From NCBI RefSeq assembly GCF_006442975.2, contig NZ_CP083954.1, positions 5,587,501 through 5,651,500 on the forward strand: a DNA stretch of 64,000 nt, given 5' to 3'. This DNA is from Mesorhizobium sp. B2-1-1 (GTDB lineage: Bacteria > Pseudomonadota > Alphaproteobacteria > Rhizobiales > Rhizobiaceae). The notes under the pieces are model-generated. The model did not search any database. It saw only the letters and a program-made list of their open reading frames with translations, and was not told the DNA's origin. Below are positions 55,672 through 63,587 of the stretch, piece after piece. Positions within the stretch are counted from its first letter, which is position 1. Every line of letters starts with the position of its first letter. Made by a program: the position numbers and the translations under genes.

Positions 55672-57564
55672 ATGAACTACAGACGCGACATCGACGGCCT
55701 GCGGGCCATAGCGGTGCTGCCTGTCGTCCTCTTTCATTTCGGCTTGTCCGCCATCCCAGGCGGCTTCACCGGCGTCGACATCTTCTTCGTCATATCGGGC
55801 TATCTGATCAGCGGCAGCCTGCTCGACGATCTCGAACGCGGCCAGTTTTCGATCGGCCGCTTCTATTGGCGCCGCGCGCGGCGCATCCTGCCGGCGCTGA
55901 CCTTCGTCATCGTGCTCGCAGGCACTGCCGCCTGGTTCATCCTTTTGCCATCGGACCTGCACGAATTCAGCCTCAGCGTCATCGCGGCCTCGACCTTCTG
56001 GTCGAACATCTATTTCTGGAAGACGACGAACTATTTCTCGATCGACGCCGAGCTGCGGCCGCTGCTGCACACATGGTCGCTCTCGGTCGAAGAGCAATAT
56101 TACATCTTCGCGCCGATACTGGTGTACCTGATCTATCGCTATGCCTCGAAACGCTGGCTGACGATATTGCTGCCGATCGCGATCGGCAGTTTCGCCTTGG
56201 CGGTCATGGCGACCTCGATGGCGCCCACGGCGGGTTTCTACCTGTTGCCGACGCGCATCTGGGAACTGGCGCTGGGGGCCATGCTGATGCTGAGAAAGCC
56301 GCCGGCACTTGCCAGCCGGCCGGCAATGGAACTGATCGGCCTCGCCGGCTTTGCCATGGTCGCCTTCGGCTTCGTCACGATTTCGGAGAGCGACCCCTTT
56401 CCGGGCTACAATGCCTTGTTCCCCTGCATCGGCACCGCCCTGCTCATCTATGCCGGCCACGAAAGGGCGGGCGAACAGGGGCCGGCAACCATCGCCACGC
56501 GGGTGTTGCAGTTTCCTCCGCTGGTCTGGATCGGCCTCATTTCCTATTCGCTCTACCTCGTTCATTGGCCGATCAATTCCTTCGTCCATTACGTTTCGCT
56601 GAAAGCCATCGGCGTGCCGACGATCATCGCCATGACCGTGGCAAGCTTCGCCCTGGCGGCGTTCTCGTGGACATATGTCGAGCAGCCGTTTCGGCGGAAA
56701 CGGGCCTACACCGCACCGCTGCCTATCTTCGCCTTTTCCGCGACGGCAATCGTCCTGCTCTGCGTCGGCGGCGTGGCCGGGGCGCTCGGCAACGGTTTTC
56801 CGCAACGCTTCCCGGACTTTTCAACGGAACGGATCCAGGTTGGCGACTGGCGCAACGGCATCTGCTTCAACGAAGGCTCGAACCGGATCGAGGACTGGAA
56901 CCTTGCCGCCTGCACCCGAACGAGCGGCTTTGCCACCAATGTGCTGTTATGGGGCGATTCCTTCGCCGCCCACTATGTCTCGGGACTTGAAGCCAACGCC
57001 CAGAAAATCCAGGCTAACGTCATCCAATACACCTATGCCGGCTGCCCCCCGGACCTGACCTATTTTTCCTATGCCCGACCTGCCTGTACCAGCTTCAACG
57101 AGCGGGCCCTGTCGATCATCCGCGAAGCCAACATTCAGGCCGTGATCCTGAGTGGCCGATGGACCGACTACGAGGTCAGGGGCTTCGGCGGTCTCCAGAA
57201 GACGATCGACCGGCTTCGCCAGATGGGCGTCAAGGTCTACGTCATCGGCCAGTCTCCCGAATTCATCGCCGACGTCCAGAAAATCGCCTTCTTCGCAAGA
57301 CGAGGAGATACCGCGAACATGTCCTGGCCGATGGCCATGGATCCGGACATCAACAAGCGGGTTCTGCCCTTCGTCAAAGGCGCTGACTTCATAGACCCGC
57401 TGACCTATCTGTGCGACGCCGCAGGCTGCTCGTATGCCGATGCCGGCAACAAGCAATTTCTCTATTTCGACTATGGTCACTTCTCTTCGGCGGGCGCAGC
57501 ACTCGCCATCTCGAGATACTGGCCGAGCTTTGCAGCCGGCACCGAGATCGCGAAAGTGAAATAG
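55672..57564 (+). CDS. OafA/YrhL-type acyltransferase with C-terminal SGNH domain
   Basis: The protein has 630 residues. Residues 1 to about 365 are an acyltransferase-3 membrane domain (YRRDIDGLRAIAVLPVVLFHF, GGFTGVDIFFVISGYLIS, the RRARRILPAL stretch, HTWSLSVEEQYYIF, YSLYLVHWPI). From about 420 a periplasmic SGNH hydrolase-like domain has the serine motif LLWGDSFAAHYVSGL and a late YFDYGHFSSAGA with Asp and His. Such fusions O-acetylate surface polysaccharides. It lies 202 bp after the membrane-protein gene and probably modifies the glycan made by this cassette. Confidence 0.9.
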   Translation: MNYRRDIDGLRAIAVLPVVLFHFGLSAIPGGFTGVDIFFVISGYLISGSLLDDLERGQFSIGRFYWRRARRILPALTFVIVLAGTAAWFILLPSDLHEFSLSVIAASTFWSNIYFWKTTNYFSIDAELRPLLHTWSLSVEEQYYIFAPILVYLIYRYASKRWLTILLPIAIGSFALAVMATSMAPTAGFYLLPTRIWELALGAMLMLRKPPALASRPAMELIGLAGFAMVAFGFVTISESDPFPGYNALFPCIGTALLIYAGHERAGEQGPATIATRVLQFPPLVWIGLISYSLYLVHWPINSFVHYVSLKAIGVPTIIAMTVASFALAAFSWTYVEQPFRRKRAYTAPLPIFAFSATAIVLLCVGGVAGALGNGFPQRFPDFSTERIQVGDWRNGICFNEGSNRIEDWNLAACTRTSGFATNVLLWGDSFAAHYVSGLEANAQKIQANVIQYTYAGCPPDLTYFSYARPACTSFNERALSIIREANIQAVILSGRWTDYEVRGFGGLQKTIDRLRQMGVKVYVIGQSPEFIADVQKIAFFARRGDTANMSWPMAMDPDINKRVLPFVKGADFIDPLTYLCDAAGCSYADAGNKQFLYFDYGHFSSAGAALAISRYWPSFAAGTEIAKVK

Positions 57565-57672: not shown

Positions 57673-57746
57673 GCGGGTATGATGTAATGGTAGCCTGTCA
57701 GCTTCCCAAGCTGAACGCGCGGGTTCGATTCCCGCTACCCGCTCCA
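57673..57746 (+). tRNA. tRNA-Gly (anticodon CCC)
   Basis: The 74-nt cloverleaf has acceptor arms GCGGGTA and TACCCGC, discriminator T and an encoded CCA. The anticodon stem is TCAGC/GCTGA with loop TTCCCAA, giving anticodon CCC. The T arm is GCGGG-TTCGATT-CCCGC. It serves as the integration site of the element to its right, and its 3' half is duplicated at 61712-61760. Confidence 0.95.
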
Positions 57747-57747
57747 G
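57699..57747 (+). repeat. Left attachment site (attL), 49-bp direct repeat
   Basis: From the anticodon stem to one base past the CCA, 49 bp are identical to 61712-61760. The bases just outside differ (T/C on the left, C/T on the right). Downstream similarity continues in diverged form: GCAAGGG recurs at the same offset after both copies. Confidence 0.92.
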
Positions 57748-57797
57748 CATATGCCGCAAGGGTTTGCGCCTGATTTGGCGAGTGCCGAAAACCAGCG

Positions 57798-57818
57798 GTT
57801 TTACAGGTAGTTTTACAC
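57798..57818 (+). promoter_or_regulatory. Candidate integrase arm-type sites, left end
   Basis: GTTTTACAG at 57798-57806 and GTTTTACAC at 57810-57818 lie between attL and the int stop. The same word in the same orientation occurs twice near the right end (61623-61631 and 61675-61683). Paired arm sites close to each att core are typical of tyrosine-integrase elements. Confidence 0.5.
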
Positions 57819-57825
57819 AGAACGT

Positions 57826-58815
57826 TCACTTTTTGGCCTGATCGAGTTTTCGGATGCGCTCCTTGATTGCGGCTCCGCGGCTCACATAACGCCTTATGAT
57901 GCGCGAAACATGGTCCTCTTCCCAGCCCATGATCTCGGCGATCTCGCGCTCGGTCAGGCCGGCGGTGTAAAATTTGGTCGCGGCCGTGCCCCGAAGATCA
58001 TGGAAGTGCAGGTCAACGCCTTTCGGCCATGCGATCTTCTTGGCGTCGGAGAACGAGCTGGCCAAACCGTTGACGGTCCACGGGCGCTTCTTGCTGCTGG
58101 TCAGGATAACCGGTGAGCGCTTCGGTATCCGCCCGAGGGCGTCGCGCAGTTCCTGATAGAGCGGAATGATGGCTTCGCGCTGGTGTCTGCTTTTGCCGGT
58201 GGTGATGGTTATGGCATCCTCGTCGACATGGGACCATGATAGGCGGATGAGATCGCCTACCCGAAGACCAGTGCATGCAGCCAGATCGACGGCATGAGCA
58301 ATTTCGGCCGAGCACGTCTTCTTCAGATGCCCGACGTCGCTGTCTGTCCAGATGATCTCCGAGCGAGAGCCGCTGTAAAGCTGTTTGACGCCTTCGCAAG
58401 GGTTCGAGCCAATCTTGCCGAGTGGATCGACCGCGTATGAGAGCACGCGAGAGAGAACCTGCATGCCGTAGTCGGCAGACCTGGGCGTCTCGGCATATGC
58501 CGCGCGCCACCGGCGGATTATTGGTCTGATCTTTTCCGGCCGATCGAACTGGGCGATGCGCAGTTCCCCGAAATGGCCGGCAATCCGGTCGAGCCAGGGA
58601 CCCCAGTTGCGTCGCGTCGACTCGGCGAGTTTCTTGTAGTCGGCGCTCGCCTTGTATTGCGTGACCAACGATCGAAAGCGGTTGTTGTCAGGCGACGTGC
58701 GGCTGGCAATCGCCTCATTGTAGGACGCGAAGAACTCCGGTGTGCTCCGCATCCCAACAAGGCGCGGACCACCGCGCCAAGCATACCAATAGACATTACC
58801 CTTAGCCTTGGGCAA
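57826..58815 (-). CDS. int: Tyrosine recombinase / integrase
   Basis: The protein has 329 residues. The N-terminal arm and core-binding regions (to about residue 150) include RNWGPWLDRIAGHFGELRI. The catalytic domain has Arg185 in CTGLRVGDLIRLSW, Lys208 in TTGKSRHQ, His272-x-x-Arg275 in FHDLRGTAATKFY, Trp298 in IMGWEEDHV (where a His is common) and the nucleophile Tyr310 in IIRRYVSRG. It catalyses integration into and excision from the tRNA-Gly gene 80 bp away. The start is a TTG with no clear ribosome site, so the true start could differ. Confidence 0.93.
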   Translation of the reverse strand: MPKAKGNVYWYAWRGGPRLVGMRSTPEFFASYNEAIASRTSPDNNRFRSLVTQYKASADYKKLAESTRRNWGPWLDRIAGHFGELRIAQFDRPEKIRPIIRRWRAAYAETPRSADYGMQVLSRVLSYAVDPLGKIGSNPCEGVKQLYSGSRSEIIWTDSDVGHLKKTCSAEIAHAVDLAACTGLRVGDLIRLSWSHVDEDAITITTGKSRHQREAIIPLYQELRDALGRIPKRSPVILTSSKKRPWTVNGLASSFSDAKKIAWPKGVDLHFHDLRGTAATKFYTAGLTEREIAEIMGWEEDHVSRIIRRYVSRGAAIKERIRKLDQAKK

Positions 58816-58841
58816 TTATCAGTCTAGGGTTGTGCTTCTAG

Positions 58842-59044
58842 GTTGACGGCGCAACCGCAAACAGTCAACTTGGATCCGAAAACTGTCAACCTACGGCCAT
58901 CAAACAGGCCATTTCGGTCATCAGGCCGCCATCTGTCAACCAAAACGACAACCAAAACAGCCAAAACCCGCGGCTAAGTTGTCGTAACTTTACATTTGGT
59001 TGACACATTTGAGCCGATTCCAGCTTTTTCAGATCAACGTCAAC
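58842..59044. promoter_or_regulatory. Cluster of six GTCAAC/GTTGAC motifs upstream of int
   Basis: The motif occurs at 58842 (GTTGAC), 58864, 58885, 58935 (all GTCAAC), 58999 (GTTGAC) and 59039 (GTCAAC). Oriented alike, several extend to TGTCAACC followed by A or T. About 0.1 copies would be expected by chance in 203 bp. The location just before int suggests operators for the element's HTH protein, or binding sites of a directionality factor. Confidence 0.5.
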
Positions 59045-59092
59045 ATCTTGATCGGCTAATGGACCGATCAGTAAAGACACATAAAAGGTCCA
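59045..59092. other. Non-coding stretch of the element
   Basis: An AT-richer leader between the GTCAAC cluster and the small minus-strand frame. Including the cluster, the region 58816-59092 shows no convincing gene. Confidence 0.4.
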
Positions 59093-59296
59093 CTAGCGAG
59101 CGGGAACAGCTTCGACCGACCAGTGAAGCGTAGCATCTACCGGAACGCGTAGTGACTCGCTGTTTACGAATGATGAGACCCCTTGCACCGCAAGCTCCAA
59201 AACATATTCCGCAGACTTGACGGCACAGTTCGTTATCGACTTGGCGCCGGATGCAAAGACATCGGATCGACCATCGTGAAATGATGCAATGTGCAT
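59093..59296 (-). CDS. Possible small protein of the element, unknown
   Basis: The predicted protein has 67 residues, MHIASFHDGRSDVFASG followed by ITNCAVKSAEYVLELAVQGVSSF and ending TLHWSVEAVPAR. The composition is protein-like with a plausible helix in the middle. There is no clear ribosome site before the ATG. I recognise no family. It follows the HTH gene on the same strand at about 170 bp, so it might be the last gene of a short operon or a chance frame. Confidence 0.3.
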   Translation of the reverse strand: MHIASFHDGRSDVFASGAKSITNCAVKSAEYVLELAVQGVSSFVNSESLRVPVDATLHWSVEAVPAR

Positions 59297-59370
59297 AATC
59301 GCGATGTCTTAGGCGTTTTAGAACGAATAGACGGACCAATTAGGGAAGGAGGCGTCCGGGCGCGCCTTCA

Positions 59371-59469
59371 TTATTTCGCCCACAACTCCGGAGTCCCGTT
59401 ACCTCCTTCGGCCCGATTATCAGCAATCCGGCGCCAACTCTTGATGGATAGGTCTTGCTCGCCGCTCAT
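59371..59469 (-). CDS. Possible 32-residue micro-protein coupled to the HTH gene
   Basis: The ATG overlaps the stop of the HTH gene in an ATGA arrangement. The peptide is MSGEQDLSIKSWRRIADNRA followed by EGGNGTPELWAK. Inside it the minus strand carries AAGGAGGTAAC, a very strong ribosome site, which suggests that another short frame follows. No family is recognised and coding is unproven. Confidence 0.25.
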   Translation of the reverse strand: MSGEQDLSIKSWRRIADNRAEGGNGTPELWAK

Positions 59470-59876
59470 TTGCCGAATATCCCTCGGAGAGCAGACCGCG
59501 CCTTCGAGGTGAGGCTTGGATTGGTCTGATCGGACGCGCGGCGAATTTCCTCGAGCCATGCCACTTCGTTCTCGGTGACCGGCGTCCCGAAGATCTGCCG
59601 GACGGCAAGCTCGGTGGTGTCGCCGCCGAGCTGCTCGATCGCCAGCTGGAATAGCATCACGGGATCGCAGTCGAGGGCAGTCGCCAAAGCCGACACCCTG
59701 TCGAGAGGCAGCTTTGCCGTGCCGGCCTTGATCATGGCGAGCATGTTGGGGTTGACGAATCCGGCTTCGGCGGCAATCGCAATCTGGGTCTTCTTCGGCC
59801 TCAGCTCGAGGATGCGCTTTTCAAGATACTTTGCGAGCCTGGTGCCTGCGAAGGGCTTGCCGGAGCGGTTACTCAT
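59466..59876 (-). CDS. HTH (XRE-like) DNA-binding protein of the element
   Basis: The protein has 136 residues from the ATG at 59876, which follows GAGGAAAG. The helix-turn-helix is LRPKKTQIAIAAEAGFVNPNMLAMIKAG, then LPLDRVSALATALDCDPVMLFQLAIEQ, a Cro/C1-like arrangement. The C-terminus (TPVTENEVAWLEEIRRAS) is helical and polar. It is divergent from abiEi across 183 bp and is the best candidate for the repressor of the element and for binding the GTCAAC motifs. The open frame upstream of the ATG is ignored. Confidence 0.82.
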   Translation of the reverse strand: MSNRSGKPFAGTRLAKYLEKRILELRPKKTQIAIAAEAGFVNPNMLAMIKAGTAKLPLDRVSALATALDCDPVMLFQLAIEQLGGDTTELAVRQIFGTPVTENEVAWLEEIRRASDQTNPSLTSKARSALRGIFGK

Positions 59877-60059
59877 CGTCACTTTCCTCTGAAATCGCAT
59901 CTTCGATGTGCTGCTAATTTCTTTATAGCGACGGTCTGTCGGGGATTTCGTGGGGGGTGACGGGTATTCAAGCGAGCCAGCTCTCGCAGAGGATAAAGTC
60001 ATTACGGAGAGCAATTGTATGTGATATAACCTCTTCTATTACGCCTAGACGTCGAGGAT

Positions 60060-60680
60060 ATGTCACACAAGCCTACACAACGCGATCAAGCCCGTGCACT
60101 GCTGCTGGATGGCAGTCTGGTCCGTCTGCGCGACCTGACCGGGGCGGGAGTGAGTCCGGAGACAATGGCCCGTCTGGTTCGCGAGGGTGAGGTCGTGCGG
60201 CTCGCGCGTGGCCTCTACCAACTGGCAGAAGCCATGCCAGATGCGCGTCGCTCAATCGCTGAAGCTTCGGCGCTGGTTCCCAAAGGGGTGGTCTGCCTCA
60301 CCTCAGCGCTGCAATTCCACGATCTGACGCTGCAGATGCCCTCAGCCATCTGGATGGCCATTGATCGAACGGGTTGGAAACCGAAAGTCGACTATCCGCC
60401 CATCCGTTTTGTCCGCTTCAGTGGCCATGCCCTCACGGAAGGCATCAAACGGCACCGCATCGAAGGCATCGACGTTCCAGTGTTCGAGCCCGCAAAAGCC
60501 ATCGTGGACTGCTTTCGCTACCGCAACAAGATTGGACTCGACATCGCGATCGAGGGGCTCCGAGAAGGGCTCAGGACGCGCCAGGTCACGCCGGATCAAC
60601 TGTGGAAATTCGCCCAGTCTGGCCGGGTCTGGTCGGTGATGCGCCCCTACGTCGAGGCAATGGTCGCCAATGGCGCGTGA
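60060..60680 (+). CDS. abiEi: AbiEi-family antitoxin (type IV toxin-antitoxin)
   Basis: The protein has 206 residues. An N-terminal winged helix (VRLRDLTGAGVSPETMARLVREGEVVRLARGLYQL) is typical of AbiEi, which represses its own promoter. It continues with ALVPKGVVCLTSALQFHDLTLQMP, then the C-terminal antitoxin domain (VRFSGHALTEGIKRHRIEGIDVPVFEPAKAIVDCFRYRNKIGLDIAIEGL). AbiE systems give abortive-infection phage defence and stabilise mobile DNA. The start follows GAGG at short spacing. It overlaps the toxin gene by 11 nt. Confidence 0.9.
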   Translation: MSHKPTQRDQARALLLDGSLVRLRDLTGAGVSPETMARLVREGEVVRLARGLYQLAEAMPDARRSIAEASALVPKGVVCLTSALQFHDLTLQMPSAIWMAIDRTGWKPKVDYPPIRFVRFSGHALTEGIKRHRIEGIDVPVFEPAKAIVDCFRYRNKIGLDIAIEGLREGLRTRQVTPDQLWKFAQSGRVWSVMRPYVEAMVANGA

Positions 60681-61569
60681 GCTTCGCAACGTTGGCGCCT
60701 CGGTCAGAGCCCGCCTGCTCGATCGCGCTCGCGAGGAGCGGGCCGACTTCCAGCTGCTGCTAACACGGTATGCGCTTGAGCGGCTACTCTACAGGCTCAG
60801 CATATCCACCGAACGCGAGCGCTTTCTCCTGAAGGGCGCGATGCTGTTTGCGGCCTGGCTCGACAATCCCTTCCGCCCTACGCGCGACCTGGATCTTCTC
60901 GGAAGCGGCGATGCAGGTGTCGCCACAATGGTCGAGTGCTTCCGAGCAATCTGCTCGACACCTGTGGAGGATGACGGTGTCGAGTTCGACGTTGCTGGAC
61001 TTACGGCCGAGCCGATCCGCAATGACGCGGAGTATGCCGGCGTTCGTGTCAGGACTGCCGCGACGATTGCCGGCGCACGTGTGCCCATTCAGGTCGACGT
61101 CGGCTTCGGTGACGTGGTGACGCCGGCGCCGGTCGACCTTGAATACCCAACCTTGCTCGACTCGCCACCGCCCCGCCTTCGCGCCTACCCGCCGGAGACG
61201 GTCGTTGCGGAAAAATTTGAGGCCCTGGCAAGGCTGGGCGTCGCCAATAGCCGCATGAAGGACTTCTACGACCTGTGGATGATCGCAAGGACCTTCAGCT
61301 TTGAAGGGAGCGTTCTTTCCTCCGCGATCAGACGAACGTTCGAGCGACGCCAAACGGCCTGGCCAACCGAGATACCGACAGGACTGAGCGTTGCCTTCGC
61401 AGCCGCAAAGAGCGGTCAGTGGCGGGCTTTCCTGACGCGGGAGCGTATGGCGGCGGCGCCCGGCGATTTCACTACCATCATCGATGGCCTGCGGGTGTTC
61501 CTGGCACCGCTTCTGACTGAAGGACCGCACACCGGCCGGTGGCCGCCGGGCGGGCCGTGGACTGAATAG
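60670..61569 (+). CDS. abiEii: AbiEii-family nucleotidyltransferase toxin
   Basis: The protein has 299 residues. Nucleotidyltransferase motifs are KGAMLFAAWLD near residue 55, then TRDLDLLG (71-78) with the metal-binding Asp pair. PIQVDVGFGD follows near 139-148, and the late motifs VVAEKFEALARLG (from about 178) and SRMKDFYDLW (194-203) complete it. AbiEii-type toxins are nucleotidyltransferases, some of which modify tRNA acceptor ends. In a tRNA-seated element this gives addiction and phage defence. Translation is coupled to abiEi by overlap. Confidence 0.92.
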   Translation: MARELRNVGASVRARLLDRAREERADFQLLLTRYALERLLYRLSISTERERFLLKGAMLFAAWLDNPFRPTRDLDLLGSGDAGVATMVECFRAICSTPVEDDGVEFDVAGLTAEPIRNDAEYAGVRVRTAATIAGARVPIQVDVGFGDVVTPAPVDLEYPTLLDSPPPRLRAYPPETVVAEKFEALARLGVANSRMKDFYDLWMIARTFSFEGSVLSSAIRRTFERRQTAWPTEIPTGLSVAFAAAKSGQWRAFLTRERMAAAPGDFTTIIDGLRVFLAPLLTEGPHTGRWPPGGPWTE

Positions 61570-61711
61570 CGTCTCTGCTGCCAAGTTTGGGCATAGGCTA
61601 TAGCGCGAGGATGGCGCTCACGGTTTTACAGCGTCATTGATTTCATTGGATAATTTCTGGTCGAGAATCAGCTCGTTTTACAGCTAAGCCACTGGATATA
61701 AGCATCACGTC
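61570..61711. promoter_or_regulatory. Right end of the element with candidate arm-type sites
   Basis: No gene lies between the abiEii stop and attR. GTTTTACAG occurs at 61623-61631 and again at 61675-61683, in the same orientation as the left-end copies. The stretch is AT-richer than the surroundings. Confidence 0.5.
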
Positions 61712-61760
61712 CAGCTTCCCAAGCTGAACGCGCGGGTTCGATTCCCGCTACCCGCTCCAG
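61712..61760 (+). repeat. Right attachment site (attR), tRNA-Gly 3'-half remnant
   Basis: The 49 bp are identical to 57699-57747 and include the anticodon arm from CAGCTTCCC, the T arm and the acceptor 3' strand with CCA. The 5' half of a tRNA is absent, so this is the displaced end of the original gene. GCAAGGG-GCTTGCA-CCCTTGC follows at 61769 and could be the old tRNA terminator. Confidence 0.92.
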
Positions 61761-62308: not shown

Positions 62309-63298
62309 TCATCCCACTTCGCGCAGGATGAAGTCATGCAGCATCTTTGCCGCCGGCGACAGGGCGCGGTTCTTCACTGTGATCAGGCTGTAGGGCCGGA
62401 CCTCGATGTCGAATTCGGTCTGGACGACATCGATGGCGCCGGCCAGCCCTTCGGGATTCTGGATGAATTTCGCCACCTGGATCGAGACCGGCGCGATGGC
62501 GTCGGAGTGCGCGACCATGACCAGGGTCAGGAGCAGCGAACTGGTGTTGAGGATGCGGTCCGGCAGCGCGATGTTGCGGTTCAGGAAATTGCTCTCCATG
62601 GCCTGGCGCAGCGGCGAGCCGCCGGACTGGAAAACCCAGTCATAGGCCGCGGTCTCCTCCAACCGCACCGCCTTGCCCTCGGTCAGCGGATGGCCCCGGC
62701 GCACGATCAGGCAGGCTTTCTCGACGCCGATCACACGGGACTCGAACAGCCGCGGGTTGAGATCGTCGGGGATGCGCGCGATGATGAAGTCATGGCGCGA
62801 CGCGATCAACTCGCGCGCGAGCACGTTGGAGGTCTCGACCTGCATGGTGATCTCGATGCGCGGGTAGATGCGGCGGATTTCGCGGATCGCCGGCACCGCG
62901 AGCTCGATCGCGGGCGCCGTCACCGCACCAAGGAACACCGAGCCGCCCTTGCCCGCCTTGAGTTCGGAGATCTCGCGATCGACCTCGCGCATCTCCAAGA
63001 GGATGGAGCGCGCGCGCCTGGCGAGCGCCTTGCCATAGGGCGTCAAGGTGACGCCGCGCGGCAGCCTTTCGCAGAGCGTGACGTCCAGCACGGCTTCCAT
63101 CTCGGCGATCATGCGCGAGGCCGCCGGCTGTGAGATATTCATGACCTGGGCGGCGGAACTGACCCGGCCGTGATCGTCCAGTGCAACGATCATGCGCATA
63201 TGGCGCAGGCTGAGGCCGCTGCGCAGCAGGGTCTCACCGTCACCGGGGAGCACCTCGTAACCTTCTGAAATCCCGCCAGGATTGCGCAACGTTGCCAT
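62309..63298 (-). CDS. gbpR: LysR-family regulator GbpR
   Basis: The protein has 329 residues from the ATG at 63298. The N-terminal HTH is LRHMRMIVALDDHGRVSSAAQVMNISQPAASRMIAEMEAVL with LPRGVTLTPYGKALARRARSILLEM. The effector domain includes FLGAVTAPAIELAVPAIREI and ESRVIGVEKACLIVRRGHPL. In Agrobacterium GbpR regulates chvE/gbp and responds to L-arabinose, D-galactose and similar sugars. The divergent chvE 290 bp away supports the name. A perfect palindrome lies 44 bp upstream of the start. Confidence 0.9.
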   Translation of the reverse strand: MATLRNPGGISEGYEVLPGDGETLLRSGLSLRHMRMIVALDDHGRVSSAAQVMNISQPAASRMIAEMEAVLDVTLCERLPRGVTLTPYGKALARRARSILLEMREVDREISELKAGKGGSVFLGAVTAPAIELAVPAIREIRRIYPRIEITMQVETSNVLARELIASRHDFIIARIPDDLNPRLFESRVIGVEKACLIVRRGHPLTEGKAVRLEETAAYDWVFQSGGSPLRQAMESNFLNRNIALPDRILNTSSLLLTLVMVAHSDAIAPVSIQVAKFIQNPEGLAGAIDVVQTEFDIEVRPYSLITVKNRALSPAAKMLHDFILREVG

Positions 63299-63341
63299 TG
63301 ATTTCCCTTCGCTCCCAATGCCCTTGAGTTTAGCGTCAACG

Positions 63342-63359
63342 TATACCAGTTTCGGTATA
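63342..63359. promoter_or_regulatory. Palindromic operator TATACC-N6-GGTATA in the gbpR-chvE promoter
   Basis: TATACC at 63342-63347 and GGTATA at 63354-63359 are perfect inverted repeats with a 6-bp spacer. The length and the T-to-A end symmetry match a LysR recognition site. It lies close to gbpR, as expected for autoregulation, and about 230 bp before the chvE start. Confidence 0.6.
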
Positions 63360-63587
63360 GCAATCATCAAAGATCGCATTTGACAGTTATGGCAAAGGGA
63401 CACACCCTTCGCGCGTCCTGGGGCGTGCCAGTCGATGACGAGGAAAATCGTGTCGATTGAAATCAGTCCCAGGGCCGATTGGGAGGATACCGGAGATCGA
63501 TAGACGACAGCGGCGCTTGCGCTCCTGCTCGCCTGCGCGGCCCGCGAAGCCCCGAGGTGTCGCGTCCATCAACCAGGGAGAGTAATT

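Follow-up and report, generated by a model that had tools for sequence, protein, structure and literature searches.

An AbiE-carrying element in tRNA-Gly(CCC) of Mesorhizobium sp. B2-1-1 is very probably a deletion derivative of a larger defence-type island

When an integrase gene and a toxin-antitoxin pair lie between two copies of a tRNA gene end, in about 4 kb of DNA, it has to be asked whether they form a complete mobile unit or what a larger element has left behind. This question was raised by a locus of Mesorhizobium sp. B2-1-1. The window (the whole stretch of DNA analysed: 64 kb, G000:C1:5587501-5651500, in a 6.18-Mb genome) contains an element inserted in tRNA-Gly(CCC), with the following order: attL, the tyrosine integrase gene int (minus strand), a helix-turn-helix (HTH) gene (minus strand), the AbiEi and AbiEii genes (plus strand) and attR. 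The first-pass annotation had presented this element as close to the smallest possible self-integrating defence islet, and as a candidate mobilisable unit or satellite. The comparisons reported here indicate that it is very probably a deletion derivative of a larger family of defence-type islands that insert into tRNA-Gly(CCC), probably immobile alone and possibly mobilisable in trans.

Truncation of the integrase gene

The window integrase keeps its catalytic part in frame and lacks its native first ~12 residues. Where the G036 frame runs on to MVTLELKGLHRV, the window frame meets TGA TAA, directly ahead of TTG-CCC-AAG (TTG at 58815); the integrases of intact relatives begin with MVTLELKGLHRV or a similar sequence. 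A start followed by LKG was kept in 29 of 33 integrase loci (a set that includes near-duplicates), the other four alignments beginning inside broken genes. In an alignment of 24 integrase rows, LKG was absent from the window row only. The first predicted strand of an intact relative comprises residues 10-14 (mean predicted local distance difference test score 82; 52 over residues 1-10). The truncated integrase is presumably inactive.

The missing DNA would also have carried a second gene. Of 24 loci, 12 have an open frame that runs into the int start, with a 14-nt overlap in 11 cases; this reading covers the 12 loci caught by a DNA pattern, two of which are second copies of the same contigs, and the other 12 were unmatched. 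From its likely start, the overlapping gene has 102 codons in L090 and L093, and 68 codons in L035. The L093 gene matched PHROG 25900 (transcriptional regulator, E 9e-11) and PHROG 66 (excisionase, E 7e-6), with Pfam and NCBIfam models reached below threshold only; the L035-type gene had no match in PHROGs or Pfam. In both the Mesorhizobium phage vB_MseS-P1 and a Rhizobium phage, a small annotated gene overlaps int. This excisionase-like gene is missing from the window, together with its DNA. The window HTH protein had no excisionase match in Pfam, PHROGs or NCBIfam; the element may nevertheless have an unrecognised recombination directionality factor.

The element might still be complete and autonomous, if translation of int started at TTG 58815 and excision were served by the HTH protein or by a host factor. 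Consistent with this, the att cores and four putative arm words (GTTTTACA, see below) are intact, and the catalytic part is in frame with a low ratio of nonsynonymous to synonymous divergence (dN/dS). Family members this small can have a complete integrase: L124, in a metagenome-assembled genome (MAG) of Hyphomicrobiales, occupies ~2.3 kb in tRNA-Gly(TCC) and encodes a complete integrase, its single cargo open reading frame (ORF) having 222 amino acids (aa). However, L124 retains a small gene (71 aa) overlapping int, whereas the window has lost the native N-terminus, the overlapping upstream gene and their DNA, and no ribosome-binding sequence was seen by eye before the TTG. Autonomy is therefore considered highly improbable.

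Larger islands with the same ends

The left end of the element (95% DNA identity, to position 58810) and its right end (92%) were both found in G036, ~29 kb apart, at the same tRNA and with the same right-flank gene beyond. The G036 island encodes HsdM, HsdS, an HsdR split over two ORFs, a helicase/REase_MTES_1575 protein, SIR2_2, transposases, an HTH protein and an AbiE pair with AbiEii in pieces. From attL to attR, the related islands measure 32 kb (G036), 15 kb (G163), 23 kb (G115), 15 kb (G001) and 45 kb (G032), and that of G159 measures ~61 kb (from its end coordinates). The G115 island carries HsdR, HsdS, a complete Zorya type I set (ZorA-ZorB-ZorC-ZorD) and HipBA before attR. The G163 island has a different content: a scan of ten of its proteins yielded DUF4438, trypsin-like and LuxR-type matches, and seven of the ten had no match. 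At the other extreme, the G168 site consists of the tRNA, 1.9 kb with AbiE (94%), the right arms and attR, without integrase, HTH gene or left arms.

The proposed history of the window element is as follows. A phage-type tyrosine integrase would have joined attP to attB by recombination at a 48-49-bp core, which is the 3' half of the tRNA, with GTTTTACA arm sites flanking the core on both sides. A later deletion, running rightwards from int codon ~12, would have taken the int start and the overlapping excisionase-like gene, together with any cargo that lay between them and the HTH-AbiE module beside attR. Left over would be attL and its arms, a headless int, the HTH gene, AbiE, the right arms and attR, the AbiE pair being retained by selection, either through a costly loss (type IV toxin-antitoxin addiction) or through abortion of phage infection. 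The opposite order, with the window form as the ancestor and the large islands as the outcome of later gains, was rejected, since the relatives have the int start and only the window has lost it.

The integrase family also serves temperate phages, and the element could instead be the remnant of a prophage. Integrase relatives are encoded by vB_MseS-P1 (66% identity) and Rhizobium phages (62%), which share the arm words, and by seven IMG/VR contigs; in addition, phage-like genes were seen by eye in the elements of G001 (at tRNA-Gly(CCC)) and G155 (at another core). Nevertheless, both ends of the window element are closest to the G036 island, with its type I restriction, SIR2 protein and transposases; no phage structural or packaging family was found among the 10 G036 proteins scanned against PHROGs; and the closest relative of the HTH protein lies in the G115 restriction/Zorya/HipBA island. 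A prophage origin is accordingly regarded as very doubtful, and derivation from a defence-type island is preferred.

These comparisons change the description given by the first-pass annotation. Self-integration does not suit an element whose integrase lacks its first ~12 residues and whose overlapping upstream gene is gone, in a host genome where no second integrase of the family was found at E ≤ 1e-20. It is not the smallest form either, L124 and the integrase-less AbiE unit of G168 being smaller, and no satellite function was recognised among the four gene products (PHROGs). Genes for replication, capsid remodelling or the hijack of packaging, as carried by phage satellites (of the phage-inducible chromosomal island or P4-like types), had no counterpart among these four products.

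A PDC-S36 candidate defence gene was observed within the restriction locus of G115 (L091/L092). The candidate rule that a toxin-antitoxin system always stands beside attR was rejected: such a system, or its remnant, was present in 5 of 10 right ends (window, G036, G168, G159 and G115), and none was seen in G163, G001, G032, G097 or G155 (by eye and with scans of part of the genes).

Integration site, transfer and divergence

The locus is a genuine integration site, because one relative is precisely empty and because, against the closest relatives, the element genes have diverged less than the flanking ones. When the window flanks were joined, they aligned through the junction of G026 over 1,306 columns (76%); of the 30 loci tried, no other did so, the rest diverging just past the tRNA. 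The tRNA and the right flank were on one contig in 31 of 36 same-genus relatives, with an interval of ≤2 kb in 21 of the 31 and a longer one (~2.7 to 80 kb) in 10; these counts are arithmetic on the listed match rows, in which G006, G007, G013, G014 and G024 were unplaceable. Within the window, tRNA-Gly(CCC) is the sole tRNA (ARAGORN). The two repeat copies are identical (49/49 bp), are spaced by 4,013 bp and span tRNA positions 27-74 plus one base; int adjoins the tRNA end, with a gap of 79 bp. The element is single-copy in the host genome, the sole other match being its 49-bp core in tRNA-Gly(TCC) (90%).

Synonymous divergence (dS) from the window was 0.173 (G036) and 0.144 (G163, partial) for int, and for AbiEi/AbiEii 0.162/0.178 (G168) and 0.202/0.180 (G036, partial). 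In the same three genomes, dS of the flanking LysR gene and the 53961 gene was 0.495-0.737 (LysR only for G163). Because element dS is below flank dS in G036, G163 and G168, the close relatives owe their shared element to transfer that postdates the divergence of their genomes. The comparison of this tRNA locus in related strains, proposed by the first-pass annotation, thus yielded both a precise empty site and a dS contrast that shows gene movement between species. Its coordinates and content for the tRNA, the perfect repeat, int, the HTH gene and abiEi/abiEii were confirmed (ARAGORN, Pfam, PADLOC), and so was the lack of transfer and replication genes: no relaxase, type IV secretion system or replication family was present among the four gene products, no search for an origin of transfer having been made.

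Several observations weigh against derivation by deletion from a G036-like island. For the 601-bp segment to the right of the junction, searches of 146 genus genomes, 397 order genomes and a plasmid collection gave nothing substantial: besides the segment itself, one 34-base match (genus genomes) and one 27-base match (order genomes) were obtained, and a tblastn search of plasmids with its 67-aa ORF gave no match. The G036 HTH protein is only 50% identical to that of the window. Because of this unmatched segment and this distant HTH protein, the history would include recombination as well as deletion. Beyond its lost start, the integrase frame is free of stops and frameshifts, and its pairwise dN/dS against G036 is 0.09, so the truncation would be recent, or the TTG start would still yield some protein. 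Finally, int dS matches that of the flanks in G097 (0.57) and G159 (0.51), and is higher in G115 (1.44); because these int genes are as diverged as the flanks or more, the dS contrast supports recent transfer for the closest relatives only.

The window HTH protein has its closest relative (91% identical) in the G115 island, where it is encoded close to attR. TGTCAAC/GTTGACA words were clustered at 58837-59010, in both orientations. In G005 (G005:C1:4939855-5019596), ~80 kb lie between the tRNA and the right flank, and no relative of the window integrase was found in that genome at E ≤ 1e-20; a different element may occupy this site.

Table 1. Features of the tRNA-Gly(CCC) locus (window coordinates)
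Feature	Position	Strand	Basis
Acyltransferase/SGNH gene, left flank, outside element	55672..57564	+	ORF list, family match
tRNA-Gly(CCC), intact, target gene	57673..57746	+	ARAGORN
attL core, 49-bp repeat copy 1 (tRNA 3' half)	57699..57747	+	exact repeat
Probable arm-type integrase site GTTTTACA, +99 from core start	57798..57805	+	same offset in relatives and phage
Probable arm-type integrase site GTTTTACA, +111 from core start	57810..57817	+	same offset in relatives and phage
Tyrosine integrase remnant, 329 codons	57826..58815	-	Pfam Phage_integrase E 3e-17
Deletion junction inside int, where DNA similarity to 32-kb G036 island ends	58810..58811	.	DNA comparison
Segment without substantial match, 601 bp	58811..59411	.	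genome and plasmid searches
XRE-like HTH protein, 136 aa	59466..59876	-	HTH_3 E 1e-4, just under Pfam cut-off
AbiEi antitoxin, 206 aa	60060..60680	+	AbiEi_4 E 3e-10 (Pfam)
AbiEii nucleotidyltransferase toxin, 299 aa	60670..61569	+	Pfam E 8e-47; PADLOC E 1e-149, residues 1-298
Probable arm-type integrase site GTTTTACA, -89 from attR core	61623..61630	+	word count, relatives' offsets
Probable arm-type integrase site GTTTTACA, -37 from attR core	61675..61682	+	word count, relatives' offsets
attR core, 49-bp repeat copy 2	61712..61760	+	exact repeat
LysR-family gene, right flank of site across genus, outside element	62309..63403	-	family match, genus comparison

Integrase family and probable arm-type sites

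Integrase matches were found at E ≤ 1e-20 in 19 of 146 genus genomes: besides the window, 10 genomes have a 68-97% identical relative (in pieces in G163 and G021) and 8 have a distant one. Named genomes contain 21 integrase loci, 20 by tRNA-Gly(CCC) and one by tRNA-Gly(TCC), in Mesorhizobium, Rhizobium, Agrobacterium, Bradyrhizobium and unclassified Hyphomicrobiales. The Mesorhizobium carriers are M. sangaii (G097), Mesorhizobium sp. AR07 (G159), the Mesorhizobium sp. 65-26 MAG (G115), M. tamadayense (G163), M. atlanticum (G032) and M. amorphae (G001). Relatives also occur in 14 phage records (8 at ≥60% identity), and in 15 plasmid records at <60% identity only. Because of this tRNA-Gly neighbourhood, the phage and viral relatives and the low identity of the plasmid ones, the integrase is classed as a phage-type enzyme with one preferred target.

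The word GTTTTACA occurs four times in the 64 kb, two copies lying inside each element end, as compared with 0.15 expected and a maximum of 1 in 100 shuffles, for a motif picked after inspection of the element ends. In the relatives, the offsets are +99/+111 on the left and -90/-38 on the right (the window right pair being shifted by 1). Among 12 left ends, both words were present in 8, one in 3 and none in G168; among 10 right ends, both were at the expected place in 8, with a single word there in G097 and G155. The G155 element probably sits in another tRNA-Gly, because its core has 5 mismatches. For the 21 loci in named genomes, the left pair was found in 14, one word in 3 and none in 4; these 4 are all Bradyrhizobium loci, in which GTTTTGT/GTTTTGC variants were seen by eye. 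The idea that the arm words are universal in the family was rejected, the left pair being complete in 8/12 and 14/21 of the two sets.

This left pair also comes after the tRNA in loci of Rhizobium and Agrobacterium that encode integrases 60-66% identical to that of the window. In phage vB_MseS-P1, two tandem core copies were read by eye at the record origin; the words stand at +99/+111 from one copy and at -90/-38 from the other, which lies 45 bases upstream. The Rhizobium phage likewise has its left pair at +99/+111, with a single word, at -102, on the other side. From their position and conservation, the GTTTTACA words are probable arm-type integrase binding sites.

With these sites in place, the element could behave as a cis-mobilisable element (CIME)-like unit: immobile alone, and excised and moved in trans by any incoming phage or island whose integrase has the same specificity. 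The cores and arm words are intact, the arm words are shared with phages, and the integrase-less unit of G168 at this tRNA has retained AbiE together with its right arms and attR. On the other hand, no second family integrase was found in the genome at E ≤ 1e-20, G168 has lost the left arms and its unit is therefore fixed there, the phage cores differ from the window core (9 of 48 positions in vB_MseS-P1, 8 of 48 in the Rhizobium phage), and transfer of the small form was not observed. Present mobility in trans is possible, if rather doubtful, and is compatible with derivation by deletion. Unless an integrase arrives from outside, the element would be fixed now.

Some other loci carry traces of the same organisation. 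L121 (Bradyrhizobium neotropicale) is an att-flanked element with a broken integrase and 4.3 kb from tRNA to attR; its arm words are GTTTTGCAG where others have GTTTTACAG (by eye). In G012, G029 and G019 (L010, L012 and L013), a single GTTTTACA lies near the left-arm place, in tRNA-to-flank intervals of 0.2-2.7 kb, which are possible relics of former integrations.

The AbiE pair

The intact abiEi and abiEii genes overlap by 11 bp, in the bicistronic layout of AbiE type IV toxin-antitoxin systems, which pair AbiEi with a DUF1814/AbiEii nucleotidyltransferase and in which AbiEi counteracts toxicity with no direct contact. With NCBIfam, the AbiEi model was sub-threshold (E 0.13), and no model matched AbiEii at E ≤ 1. 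Four AbiEii motifs (I-IV) have been described: hG[G/S], x15 DhD, a K motif and +DxxD (PMC3985639). All four were found by eye in the window protein (KGA-x15-DLD, AEKFEAL, KDFYD), the A at the second position of KGA being a change noted in some homologues (PMC3985639). Because AbiEii keeps these published motifs, the pair is probably active. Against G168, dN/dS was 0.14 for AbiEi and 0.16 for AbiEii (AbiE range 0.14-0.16 with G168 and G118); such pairwise ratios, which cover both branches and most of the past rather than the present state, indicate purifying selection on the pair.

Characterised AbiE pairs act against phages by abortive infection and also stabilise plasmids (PMC3985639), and AbiEi reduces the excision of an integrative and conjugative element (ICE) in Streptococcus suis (PMC11062541). 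To explain AbiE survival, maintenance or addiction is rated slightly above phage defence, because AbiE outlasted the rest in two different remnants (window and G168). Against maintenance, AbiEii is broken in G036 and G159, and hence dispensable. Phage defence by the window AbiE is possible, by analogy with characterised pairs. In G118 (L083), an HTH gene and an intact AbiEi gene (86% aa identity) were observed in the same divergent arrangement, with no AbiEii at E ≤ 1e-20, i.e. an antitoxin without toxin.

A further proposal, considered unlikely, is that AbiE beside attR acts as an anchor that outlives the island: deletions would stop before AbiE as its loss is punished, leaving att-flanked cassettes that temperate phages with the same attP could move in trans. 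If true, these toxin-antitoxin cassettes would hitch-hike with no enzyme themselves, and would retain arm sites belonging to an integrase family of phages and islands.

Comparison with known systems

Like ICESa2603rplL, ICESsuHN105 and MosAT of SXT, the element carries an AbiEi/AbiEii pair within integrative DNA (PMC3985639, PMC11062541); unlike those conjugative elements, it is a 4-kb remnant without recognised transfer genes, in which AbiE adjoins attR. HipAB stabilises a tRNA-integrated island of Shewanella putrefaciens (CGI48/GI21, tRNA-Trp; PMC8978831), and the relative G115 has HipBA where the window element has AbiE. The Shewanella case differs in its tRNA-Trp target and in its toxin, and hipAB is on GI21, itself inside CGI48 (PMC8978831). 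CIMEs are defined by att sites that are kept and by integration and transfer functions that are lost (PMC5704250); in contrast, most of the window integrase frame remains, and no parent ICE or integrative and mobilisable element was shown.

Mesorhizobium ICEs without symbiosis genes have been reported next to tRNA-Gly and other tRNA genes (PMC8627217); that survey began from conjugation/relaxase genes, which the window element lacks, and its relevant passages do not give the anticodon. In the available text of a paper on Sinorhizobium meliloti hot spots (PMC11476347), 'Gly' does not occur at a word start. The temperate phages vB_MseS-P1 and the Rhizobium RHph_Y1_20 group share the integrase family (62-66%), the small gene over the int start and the +99/+111 words; they differ in genome size (41-46 kb) and in their cores. 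An AbiE pair is also described in Mesorhizobium huakuii 7653R, where AbiEi mutants alter nodulation (PMC8436566); compared by description only, its AbiEi has 221 aa and that of the window 206 aa, and the passages available describe no mobile element.

Significance

No literature on this element was found among PubMed Central open papers (titles and abstract starts). The attP outline, the polarised truncation and the size series of 1.9 to ~61 kb at one tRNA were not found in the papers listed. The tempting description as the smallest self-mobile defence islet gives way to polarised island decay, very probably the origin of this element, with a toxin-antitoxin pair remaining. The comparisons outline an integrase/attP family of Mesorhizobium and other Hyphomicrobiales, with a core, four probable arm words and an overlapping excisionase-like gene. 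GTTTTACA at fixed offsets offers a simple signature for finding such islands and their relics. As the family is common to defence islands and temperate phages, mobilisation in trans becomes directly testable.

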